DNA from: Archangium sp. | GTDB taxonomy: Bacteria; Myxococcota; Myxococcia; Myxococcales; Myxococcaceae | NCBI GenBank assembly: GCA_030695565.1 | Contig: JAUYRZ010000116.1 | Location: 1-64,000 of the forward strand | Length of the DNA stretch: 64,000 nt | Reading direction: 5' to 3' | Shown here: positions 12,582 to 21,413 of the stretch, one piece after another | Layout: the number at the start of each line of letters is the position of its first letter | How positions within the stretch are numbered: position 1 is the stretch's first letter | Position numbers and translations under genes: made by a program | Notes under the pieces: model-generated | What the model saw: the letters and a program-made list of their open reading frames with translations, nothing else | Databases searched by the model: none | Told to the model about the DNA's origin: nothing

Positions 12582-14675
12582 ATGCCTCGCGACACATCAC
12601 TCGACCGGTACCGCAACATCGGGATCATGGCCCACATCGATGCGGGCAAGACCACCACCACCGAGCGCATTCTCTTCTACGCCGGCGCCATTCACCGCAT
12701 GGGTGACGTCGACGACGGCAACACCACCACCGACTGGATGCCGCAGGAGCGCGAACGTGGCATCACCATCACCGCGGCCGCCATCACGTGCTTCTGGGAG
12801 CGCAGCGGGCAGAAGTACCGCATCAACCTGATCGACACCCCAGGGCACGTCGACTTCACCATCGAGGTCGAACGATCGTTGCGCGTGCTCGATGGGGCCG
12901 TGGCCGTGTTCGACGGAAAGAACGGCGTCGAGCCGCAGTCCGAGACCGTCTGGCGCCAGGCCGACAAGTACAAGGTTCCCCGCATCTGCTTCATCAACAA
13001 GATGGACAGCACGGGCGCCGACTTCGACATGTCTGTCGCCTCGATCCGCGAGCGGCTGGGGGCCACCCCCCTGGTGCTGCAGCTGCCGCTGGGCCGTGAA
13101 GAATCGCTCAAGGGCGTCATCGACCTGGTGCGGATGAAGGCGATCGTCTTCACCGACAGCGACAAGGGCAGCAACTTCGAGGTCGTCGAGATCCCCGAGG
13201 ACTCCGTCGAGGCTTCGCAGAAGGCCCGCACCGCGCTGGTGGAGGCGGCCAGCGAGCTCGATGACAAGCTGATGGAGAAGTACCTGGAGAACGAGGGCAG
13301 GGACATCACGGAGGCCGAGCTGCGCGCGGTGATCCGCCGGGGCACCATCGCCCTCAAGGTGTTCCCCGTGCTCTGTGGCTCTTCCAAGCAGCACCGCGGG
13401 GTGCAGCCGCTGCTCGACGCGGTGGTCGACTACCTGCCCGCGCCGATCGACGTGCCGCCCATGGTGGCCCTCGACAAGAACGGCAAAGAAGTGACCTGCG
13501 AGACGAAAGACGACGCGCCCTTTGCCGCGCTCGCGTTCAAGATCATGAACGACTCGTTCGGCACGCTCACGTTCATCCGCGTGTATTCGGGGCGGCTCGA
13601 GTCGGGCACCGCGGTGTGGAACACGGCGAAGAAGAAGCGCGAGCGGGTCGGGCGCCTGGTGCAGATGCGCGCCGACAAACGCGACGAGATTCAAGAGTGC
13701 CTCGCCGGCGACATCTGCGCGATCGTCGGCCTCAAGCTGGCCACCACCGGCGACACGCTCTGCGTCGAGGCGAACCAGGTCTTGCTCGAGAAGATCGAGT
13801 TCCCCGAGCCGGTCATTCAACTCGCCCTCGAGCCGCGCAGCACCGAAGACGCCGACAAGCTGGTGCAGGCGCTGGCCAAGCTCGCGGTCGAAGACCCCAG
13901 CTTCAGGGTGCGCACCGACGAAGAGACCGGGCAGACCATCATCGCCGGCATGGGCGAGCTCCACCTGGAGATCATCGTCGACCGGCTCAAGCGCGAGCAC
14001 AAGGTCGAGGCCCGGGTGGGCAAGCCCCAGGTGGCCTACCGCGAGACCATCACCAAGGTGGCCGAGCAGGAGCACCGCCTCGAGCGCATCATCGGCGGCA
14101 AGAATCAGTTCGCGCACCTCAAGCTGCGGGTCAGCCCCCTCGAGAAGGGCGCCGGCTTTCAGTACAAGAACCTCGCCTCCGAACAGCAGATCCCCAAGGA
14201 GTTCTGGCCGGCCATCGAAGGCGGCGTGACCTCTGGGTTGGGGCGGGGTGTGGTGGCCAGCTACCCCATCATCGACGTGAAGGTCGAAGTCGTGGGCGGC
14301 TCGTTCAGCGAGCAGGACTCGGACGAGGTCGCCTTTCAGATCGCGGCGGCCATGGCCTTCAACGAGGCCTGTAAATCGGCCTCGCCCGTGCTTCTCGAGC
14401 CGATGATGAAGGTCGAGATCATCGTGCCCGCCGACAACCTCGGCAGCGTGATCGGTGACGTCAACGCACGCCGGGGCAACATCAAGGGCATGACCCAGCG
14501 CACGATCTACCAGGTGATCGAGGCCGAAGTGCCGCTCGCCGAGATGTTCGGCTACGTCGATTCGCTGCGCAGCCTCACCAATGGGCGTGGCAGCTACAGC
14601 ATGCAGTTCGGTAACTACGCCCACATCCCCGCGAACGTGCTCCAGCCGCTGCTGCTGCGGCTCCGCGGGTACTGA
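12582..14675 (+). CDS. fusA: Elongation factor G
   Basis: 697 residues from ATG at 12582, a typical EF-G length. The GTPase motifs are complete: [10 protein letters not shown] (G1), ERGITIT (G2 region), DTPGHVDF (G3), NKMD (G4). Domains II-V follow, with VAYRETI and the C-terminal [16 protein letters not shown]. It drives translocation on the ribosome. The switch I sequence ([16 protein letters not shown]) differs from the usual EF-G form (G-x-x-H-x-G-x-x-x-x-D) and recalls the VDDG-type switch of spd/EF-G2-like subfamilies, so the exact EF-G class is open. No tuf gene follows. Confidence 0.93.
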
Positions 14676-14732
14676 AAATAGCAGTCTGATTTCAAATGGT
14701 TGCGGCGTGTCAGGAAATTAATCAGGGAGTAC

Positions 14733-14762
14733 TTGACGTTACGAGAACTTCCGCCGTATACG
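14733..14762 (+). promoter_or_regulatory. Putative sigma-70 promoter of the S10 operon
   Basis: TTGACG (14733-14738), an 18-nt spacer, then TATACG (14757-14762), each close to consensus. It sits in the 199-nt gap between fusA and rpsJ and leaves a leader of about 105 nt. The gap is richer in A/T than its surroundings, as expected for a strong promoter region. No other gene was found in it. Confidence 0.65.
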
Positions 14763-14874
14763 CGCCGCCGTCTTCGTCTTCGCCGTAACCCAGCTCTGTG
14801 AAAACCAGGAACATCGGGTCGTAACAAGCCGTTCGGCGTTGTGTTGGTAGTCGCAAACAAAGGATCAACTGAGC

Positions 14875-15186
14875 ATGGCGACAACACAGAAAATCCGGAT
14901 TCGTCTGAAGGCGTACGACTCGAAGCTCCTGGATCAGAGCGCTACCGAGATCGTCGAAACCGCCAAGCGTACTGGCGCACGCGTCTCCGGCCCCATTCCC
15001 CTTCCCACGCGCATCAACCGTTTCACGGTGCTGCGTTCACCCCACGTCGACAAGAAGAGCCGAGAGCAGTTCGAGATCCGCACGCACAAGCGGCTCCTCG
15101 ACATTCTCGAGCCCACTCAGCAGACGCTCGACGCGCTCATGAAGCTCGACCTGTCGGCTGGTGTCGACGTCGAAATCAAGAGCTGA
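14875..15186 (+). CDS. rpsJ: 30S ribosomal protein S10
   Basis: 103 residues with the family core intact ([52 protein letters not shown]). S10 sits in the 30S head and is also NusE in antitermination. It opens the S10 operon. The following gene is rplD, not rplC: the 11-nt gap leaves no room for L3. Confidence 0.98.
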
Positions 15187-15197
15187 GGACAACGACC

Positions 15198-15845
15198 ATG
15201 GCCAAGTTCGACGTCGTTGATTTGTCCAACAAGAAGGTCTCCGAGATTGAACTCTCGGATGACGTGTTCGGCACCAAGCCCAACGCTCACCTTCTTTATG
15301 AAGCTGCGAAGATGCAGCACATCAATCGCCGCGCCGGTACGGTCGCGGTGAAGAACAGCTCCCTCGTCTCCGGCGGCGGTAAGAAGCCCTGGAAGCAGAA
15401 GGGCACCGGCCGTGCGCGCCAGGGTTCGACCCGCGCTTCGCACTGGGTCGGCGGCGGCAAGGCGATGGGCCCCAAGCAGCGTGACTACACGTACCGCCCG
15501 CCCCGTGGCGTGCGTCGTGCGGCACTCTCTTCGGCGCTGTCGCTGCGCGCTGGCGAGAAGAAGATCATCTTCATCGACGCGTTTCCCTCCGACGGCAAGT
15601 CGAAGAAGGCGTACGAGTCGCTCACCAAGGGCCTCAAGCTCGCGAACGCGCTCATCGTCGATGAGAAGAAGAACGCGAAGCTCCACCTGGCCGTCCGCAA
15701 CATGGAGAAGTTCGACGTGATCGCCCCTGAGGGTATCAACGTCGAGTCCGTGCTGCGTCGCCAGACCCTGGTGCTCACTGTCGCGGCTGCCAAGGCCATT
15801 GCCGAGGCGTTGCTCAAGCCCCGCGGCTCCAAGGCGAAGGAATAA
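15198..15845 (+). CDS. rplD: 50S ribosomal protein L4
   Basis: 215 residues from ATG at 15198. The long tentacle that lines the exit tunnel is present (KKPWKQKGTGRARQGSTRASHWVGGGKAMGPKQRDYTYRPPRGVRR, given here as positions about 60-105). L4 is the autoregulator of the S10 operon in E. coli; a comparable leader target cannot be judged here. It directly follows rpsJ, an arrangement that lacks rplC. Confidence 0.97.
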   Translation: MAKFDVVDLSNKKVSEIELSDDVFGTKPNAHLLYEAAKMQHINRRAGTVAVKNSSLVSGGGKKPWKQKGTGRARQGSTRASHWVGGGKAMGPKQRDYTYRPPRGVRRAALSSALSLRAGEKKIIFIDAFPSDGKSKKAYESLTKGLKLANALIVDEKKNAKLHLAVRNMEKFDVIAPEGINVESVLRRQTLVLTVAAAKAIAEALLKPRGSKAKE

Positions 15846-20078: not shown

Positions 20079-20137
20079 TGTTCTCGCGCTGCGCTAAGGC
20101 GCCGCTCCCTCACCTTTTCGAAGAACGGTAAAGAGTC

Positions 20138-20839
20138 ATGGCTGACGAAAAAGCTCCCCCGAAGAACGACGACGCTGCAGCGGCTGCCAAGGCCAAGAAG
20201 GCCGAGCGCGCTGAAAAGGCGAAGCGCGGCAAGAAGGAAGCGGAGCGCAAGGCGGGGTTCGCGGCGAACATCGAGGCTGGCCTCGAGGCCAAGCCGGCGC
20301 GCCTCAAGCTTCGCTACCGCAAAGAGATCGTCCCGCTCCTGATGAAGGATCTGGGCCTCAAGAACCCGATGGAAGTGCCCAAGCTCCAGAAGATCGTGGT
20401 GAACATGGGCCTGGGTGAGGCGCTGGCGAACAACAAGCTGCTCGAGTCGGCGGTCGATCAGATGATCGCCATCACCGCCCAAAAGCCGGTGATCACCCGC
20501 TCGCGCAAGGCCATCGCGAACTTCAAGCTGCGTGAAGGCCAGGCCATCGGCGCCATGGTCACCCTGCGTGGCGACCGCATGTTCGAATTCCTCGACCGCC
20601 TCATCAGCGTCGCGCTCCCCCGCGTTCGCGACTTCAAGGGCGTCTCGCCCAAGGCGTTCGACGGCCGTGGTAACTACACCATGGGTATCCGCGAGCAGAT
20701 CATCTTCCCCGAAATCAACTACGACCAAATCGAGAAGGTGAAGGGCCTCAACGTCTCGATCGTGACCTCGGCGAAGAATGACGAGCACGGCCTGGCGCTC
20801 CTCAAGGCCTTCGGCGTTCCTTTCCGCACCACAGCCTGA
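20138..20839 (+). CDS. rplE: 50S ribosomal protein L5 with basic N-terminal extension
   Basis: 233 residues against about 179 in E. coli. The extra ~50 residues are at the N-terminus, rich in Ala, Lys and Glu ([20 protein letters not shown]) and probably disordered or helical. The L5 core starts near [15 protein letters not shown] and is intact ([32 protein letters not shown]). L5 binds 5S rRNA. The gene is followed by a terminator instead of the S14 gene expected here. Confidence 0.95.
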
Positions 20840-20848
20840 GTTTTTCGA

Positions 20849-20886
20849 AGCGGCCGACAGCCTGAATTAGGCAATCGGCCGCTTTT
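20849..20886 (+). terminator. Rho-independent terminator after rplE
   Basis: AGCGGCCGA (20849-20857) pairs perfectly with TCGGCCGCT (20875-20883); CCT and AGG inside extend the structure, and four Ts follow. It stands in the middle of the spc gene order, where rpsN/rpsZ would normally follow. Confidence 0.75.
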
Positions 20887-21014
20887 GATGTAGGTGGCAC
20901 CCGTAGCAGGCAGCACGAGAAACCGTTCGCGGCGAACCACCGGGATTGGCCCGGTAGGCGTCACGAACTCCAGCGAGGGCGCGGAACAGCGTCTTCACTT
21001 GGGAAGTTGCACAG
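20887..21014 (+). other. Non-coding spacer where the S14 gene is expected
   Basis: 128 nt between the rplE terminator and rpsH. None of the three forward frames contains the CxxC pairs or the C-terminal KASW-type end of S14. A minus-strand frame across it contains CYGCH but has no recognisable family. A promoter for rpsH should lie here, given the terminator, but no clear -35/-10 pair was seen. Confidence 0.6.
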
Positions 21015-21413
21015 ATGGTCATCAATGATCCCGTGGGTGACATGCTCACCCGCATCCGCAACGCGCAGATGGTGCGTCACGACAAGCTGACGCTGCCCTC
21101 CTCGAAGTTGAAGGTCGAAGTCGCGAAAGCCCTCAAGGGCGAAGGTTTCATCGCCGACTTCATCGTCCACGAGAAGGCCCCCCAGAACGAGCTGACGGTG
21201 GTGCTGAAGTATGGCCCGAACCGCGAGCCGGTGATCACTGGCATCAAGCGCGAGAGCAAGCCTGGCCTGCGCCGCTACGTGAACGTGCGTGACATCCCCC
21301 GCGTTCGCGGCGGTATGGGCATCGCGATCCTTTCCACGTCCCGTGGCGTGATGGTCGACACCGAGGCCCGCAAGGCCAACATCGGTGGCGAGCTCATCTG
21401 CACGGTTTACTGA
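21015..21413 (+). CDS. rpsH: 30S ribosomal protein S8
   Basis: 132 residues, full length. [21 protein letters not shown] opens it and [31 protein letters not shown] closes it, here cited as positions about 100-132. S8 binds helix 21 of 16S rRNA and in E. coli represses the spc operon. It is separated from rplE by a terminator and a non-coding spacer. Confidence 0.97.

Follow-up and report, generated by a model that had tools for sequence, protein, structure and literature searches.

A candidate rpsH leader RNA in the spc operon of Myxococcaceae and the exchange of ribosomal protein S14 for a zinc-free copy

We consider it likely that the gap between rplE and rpsH in the window (the whole stretch of 64,000 nucleotides analysed here) holds a leader RNA of rpsH, which lies inside the spc operon, is built in order of two hairpins (P1 and P2) and the Shine-Dalgarno sequence, and is shared across the family Myxococcaceae, and that the S14 gene missing from this gap has been swapped for a zinc-free (C-) copy elsewhere in the genome. 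The status of the RNA as a leader is drawn from its covariation, its single copy and its fixed position. Judging from sequence, it is a candidate ribosomal protein (r-protein) leader that probably controls the amount of the r-proteins encoded downstream. The junction comprises the following features:

20138-20839, + strand: rplE (uL5), 233 aa, the upstream neighbour (NCBIfam PRK00010, 284 bits)
20848-20884, + strand: terminator-like hairpin with perfect 10-bp arms and an inner GCCT/AGGC stem, then a short T tract (inverted repeat, fold)
20925-20968, + strand: P1 hairpin of the rpsH leader (alignments A2 and A3, covariation; 70 bits with model R1)
20975-20996, + strand: P2, the second and likewise covarying hairpin of the leader, immediately 5' of the Shine-Dalgarno sequence
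21001-21006, + strand: Shine-Dalgarno sequence GGGAAG of rpsH (sequence)
21015-21413, + strand: rpsH (uS8), 132 aa, directly behind the leader (NCBIfam PRK00136, 174.5 bits)

The rplE-rpsH gap and its conserved RNA

The identities of rplE and rpsH rest on NCBIfam equivalog models, and none of the open reading frames of the gap between the rplE stop (20839) and the rpsH start (21015) is an S14 frame, so that S14 is truly missing from the spc order, as the original prediction had it. That prediction also counted L3 and tuf among the missing members of the cluster, and both are indeed absent from their usual places: rplC (L3) is a complete solo gene of 233 aa on contig C84, and no tuf lies between fusA and rpsJ. 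At the str/S10 junction itself (window 14675-15250), neither tuf nor rplC is present. The 128 nucleotides that had been described as non-coding do lack coding sequence, but they hold a conserved RNA, and the 175-nt gap, taken as a whole, folds far better than shuffled sequence (z = -4.0).

The outer stem of P1, in which 20925-20934 pairs with 20959-20968, is variable in sequence and strongly covarying. Inward of this stem come an AA bulge, two C-G pairs and an N / YA internal loop, followed by an apical hairpin (20940-20954) that reads CCGGG-AUUGG-CCCGG here and has the loop AUKGG in the family. Among 22 genomes, the GAACC and AGGC strands of P1 vary little or not at all, and the same holds for the C-G pairs next to them. 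In the ungapped alignment A2 of these 22 genomes, compensatory changes occur in 10 of the 17 P1 pairs and 92.8% of the cells are paired, versus 78.9% after shuffling and 27-43% when the partners are slid. An alignment of 53 distinct sequences gives 11 compensatory pairs, 94.5% of cells paired and 110 compensatory cells against 33 in shuffles; this larger alignment was fitted to the model, and it is A2 that carries the weight. P2 has compensatory changes in seven of its nine pairs, with 86% of cells paired versus 68% shuffled; its length varies between genera and it is weak in the termite-gut genomes. The relatives have a purine-rich GGAAGGT or GGAAGTT at the position of the Shine-Dalgarno sequence. 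In the window's genus and its close relatives only, the base of P2 (UCCAG, 20969-20973) can pair with the Shine-Dalgarno GGG. Conserved structure with covariation, one criterion by which r-protein leaders are recognised, is displayed by both P1 and P2.

A covariance model built for the leader (R1) has one strong match in the 8.5-Mb genome, at 70 bits, the next lying at 20 bits. Across 195 Myxococcota genomes it matches 83, all of them Myxococcaceae and almost always with one copy each. Placement consistently upstream of r-protein genes, a second criterion for such leaders, is likewise observed: rpsH begins 44-71 nt behind the leader core in all 30 model matches that were fetched. Nearly all S8-upstream spacers of the family contain the leader, which has diverged in three genomes (G103, G140 and G109), and the spacer measures about 95-195 nt even in family members that keep S14. 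Wherever its position was checked, the leader stands directly before rpsH, with or without S14 and in Myxococcus xanthus too; it is therefore no by-product of the loss of S14, which it predates.

A sequence-pattern scan of 84,980 species returned 43 contigs. Forty of these bear a myxobacterial name or group with myxobacteria, and one, with a full model match before rpsH, carries the label Comamonas; the other two, a Phycisphaerales contig and an Akkermansia contig, are chance matches with no model match and no rpsH behind. The contig labelled Comamonas sp. KCTC 72670 (BNCN01000021.1) carries a Myxococcaceae leader with rpsH and probably comes from a mislabelled myxobacterium. Outside the family but within the order, look-alikes of the form GGACC...CGAGG stand at the corresponding position in f7 and f9, but at 12.7-14.1 bits (loci L102 and L101) they are not significant alone and were not accepted as leaders. 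A further family of the order (f2, five loci) has a different small conserved hairpin before rpsH, GCGCC...GGGTACGGC, which may be a distantly related version of the leader. Compared with Rfam 15, the leader has no match above or near the gathering score.

Another conserved stretch was observed in the L24-L5 spacer (window 20079-20137; rplX-rplE, loci L083-L089), just before rplE and near the position of the E. coli uS8 operator. It reads GGTTCGGGCATGTATGCGCGCCCTTTG in cultured Myxococcaceae and forms a GCGC-TAAG-GCGC hairpin in the window's genus; RNAalifold returned no consensus structure for this spacer, whose alignment is poor.

Exchange of the zinc-binding S14

A search of the genome for S14 outside the spc cluster, including its zinc-binding (C+) and C- paralogues, returned a single match, on a different contig (C6, 10629-10790). 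This sole S14 is rpsN, a protein of 101 aa of the long, zinc-free type without the CxxC...CxxC ribbon, which scores 128 bits with NCBIfam PRK08881 versus 59.8 bits with the type Z model, below the type Z cut-off. Directly 3' of it lies rpmB, the only L28 gene of the genome, so that the rpsN-rpmB pair (C6, 10491-11056; locus L001, 1363-1928) is the sole source of S14 and L28; a DUF1636 gene stands behind the pair. By these assignments, the work of S14 is done by the 101-aa C- copy, and the gene has not been lost from the genome. The zinc-type L36 is still present in the window, 3' of infA, and hence not all zinc-binding r-proteins have been swapped.

Two further observations concern the surroundings of rpsN. 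Upstream of the pair stands a perfect palindrome, GTTGA-N4-TCAAC, and divergent from rpsN runs a lysine-rich open reading frame of 129 aa with no Pfam match (L001, 856-1242, minus strand). Such a divergent lysine-rich frame accompanies rpsN in those C-only genera that were examined (g1, g15, g16, g23 and g26); beside the C- copies of Myxococcus or Archangium none was observed.

To place the exchange among relatives, S14 and S8 were located in the 195 Myxococcota genomes and 40 rpsH-upstream regions were read. In cultured Myxococcaceae, with contig matches bearing the names Myxococcus, Corallococcus, Archangium, Hyalangium, Pyxidicoccus and Citreicoccus, the position between L5 and S8 is still occupied by a C+ S14 of 61 aa that contains two CxxC pairs, and several of these bacteria have in addition a C- copy close to an L28 gene. 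The S14-less junction recurs in the window's genus and in g12, g15, g18, g25 and g26, which form one clade with 100% support in a tree of L14-L24-L5-S8; two more genera, g16 and g23 (the latter from termite guts), are without the spc copy too, and their position in the tree is uncertain. This distribution indicates that the zinc-binding S14 was deleted in the ancestor of the window's genus and five related genera, and that the loss is old. In the C-only genera the C- S14 proteins cluster together with 90% support, and the C- paralogues from Myxococcus and Archangium adjoin this cluster, a grouping that fits one C- copy that is old in the family and a later loss of the zinc-type gene.

The assembly comprises 134 contigs and is possibly a draft genome or a bin from a metagenome, which might suggest that the S14 gap is an artefact of assembly or binning. 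We regard this as having a negligible chance of being right, given that an identical junction is found in independently assembled relatives, that the genome contains a complete C- S14 and that the S14-less genera form the fully supported clade.

The terminator-like hairpin behind rplE

According to the original prediction, S14 had been replaced by a terminator and a spacer, the operon being split by an intrinsic terminator gained behind rplE and a new promoter driving rpsH and all that follows. What had been called a perfect 9-bp hairpin with a T run is a perfect repeat, of 10 bp, with arms AAGCGGCCGA...TCGGCCGCTT (20848-20884), but its T tract is short. The repeat occurs once in the genome, with none expected from shuffles, and the hairpin folds with z = -5.3. 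The tract is TTTT only, with two of the four inside the stem, which makes for a weak-looking terminator. Strong hairpins also stand behind S14 in cultured relatives, a point in favour of a split. The replacement as such did not hold up: the spacer and its RNA are also present in relatives that keep S14, M. xanthus included, and of the four genomes of the genus that were read only this one has the hairpin, the three others (G067, G069 and G070) lacking it.

Nor does the arrangement demand a new promoter. In six genomes of four genera, the window's included (G069, G070, G105, G147, G144 and G145), the leader starts 4-29 nt past the rplE stop, too close for a terminator and a promoter to fit in between, so that neither a split of the operon nor a new promoter has to be assumed. 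A consensus scan found no sigma-70-like promoter in the region against 0.4 expected, a result of little weight in a GC-rich genome; in such sequence the promoter and terminator scan is uninformative, and it missed the 20848-20884 hairpin because of the long loop. Taken together, a split of the operon by S14 loss and terminator gain is improbable as an account of the junction, and a terminator effect or split operon in this one genome is possible.

Proposed function and comparison with known systems

For the leader itself, we lean slightly towards the view that it represents an undescribed RNA family, with one member per genome, that autoregulates the latter half of the spc operon across the Myxococcaceae, M. 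xanthus included, through a core that has no relation to the uS8 operator of E. coli. In the mechanism we propose, a downstream-encoded protein in excess (uS8, or uL6, uL18, uS5, uL30 or uL15) would bind the P1 core, the bound protein would lower translation initiation at rpsH, and translational coupling would extend the repression to rplF-rplR-rpsE-rpmD-rplO. In the window's genus, P2 might also hide the Shine-Dalgarno GGG, possibly as a local addition.

A long covarying hairpin between cistrons could instead be a site of processing or mRNA stability (e.g., an RNase III-type hairpin) or of antitermination between the parts of the operon, and such a role is in keeping with the strong, variable hairpins that cultured species have upstream and with the few nucleotides that may separate the leader from the upstream gene. 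We judge it unlikely, as the letters of the unpaired and internal-loop positions (GAA, YA and AUKGG) are invariant, the distance to the rpsH start is rather fixed while that to the upstream stop is variable, and P2 abuts the Shine-Dalgarno sequence; the invariant loops, the rather fixed distance and the placement of P2 point to control of rpsH initiation. Riboswitches, too, may have a small conserved core with strict internal-loop letters, as here, but usually occur before several genes. The leader occurs once per genome and solely before an r-protein operon, and a small-molecule riboswitch or other effector sensor is a very remote prospect.

Within the autoregulatory reading, uS8 is the obvious candidate to consider first, being the repressor of spc in E. 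coli (PMC10931766), and as the ligand here it is a possible but rather doubtful choice. Mimicry of the 16S uS8 site was considered and rejected: helix 21 (h21) of this genome (GUGAAAGCC / GGAAGUGC) shares no core with P1, and the leader model scores 4 bits on it, at noise level. A covariance search for mimicry of the P1 core in 23S likewise gave noise only. If autoregulation is correct, either uS8 recognises another shape or another r-protein (uL6, uL18, uS5, uL30 or uL15) has taken over the operon.

The replacement of C+ by C- r-proteins (S14, L28, L33 and others) has reportedly been described by Brochier and Makarova; PMC3087516 gives a summary. The present case resembles it in that the zinc-ribbon S14 is gone and the zinc-free paralogue is kept. 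Replacement of the zinc-ribbon S14 by a zinc-free paralogue is a known general pattern, and in M. xanthus the duplicates of S14, L28 and L33 lie together (PMC3087516). Unlike those duplicates, the C- copy here is the only S14, adjoins the only L28 and belongs to an old clade within a single family, whereas the C+-only and dual states are still seen in sister genera. One bacterial family thus offers a series for S14 from C+ only through both to C- only, a natural record of the swap of a core r-protein.

The spc operon is the longest r-protein operon of E. coli. Its operator is bound by uS8 at the start of rplE, and spc regulation in Bacillus subtilis and other species has been stated to be unknown (PMC10931766). 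The leader is like this operator in being a structured RNA between cistrons of the spc operon, for which we propose translational repression with coupling, and unlike it in standing before rpsH and in having a P1 core that differs from the uS8 site of 16S h21. It also resembles the r-leader candidates that Eckert and Weinberg described in 2020 (PMC7247131), which are covarying, lineage-restricted and upstream of r-protein genes, but none of their 20 motifs lies before rpsH or in spc, and the main text of that paper names neither Myxococcota nor rpsH. With no counterpart there or in Rfam 15, the leader is apparently unreported, an earlier report being possible in subscription papers and supplements, which lay outside the literature search. 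As a compact, single-copy, covarying element in the tractable M. xanthus, it makes spc regulation outside the γ-proteobacteria directly testable.
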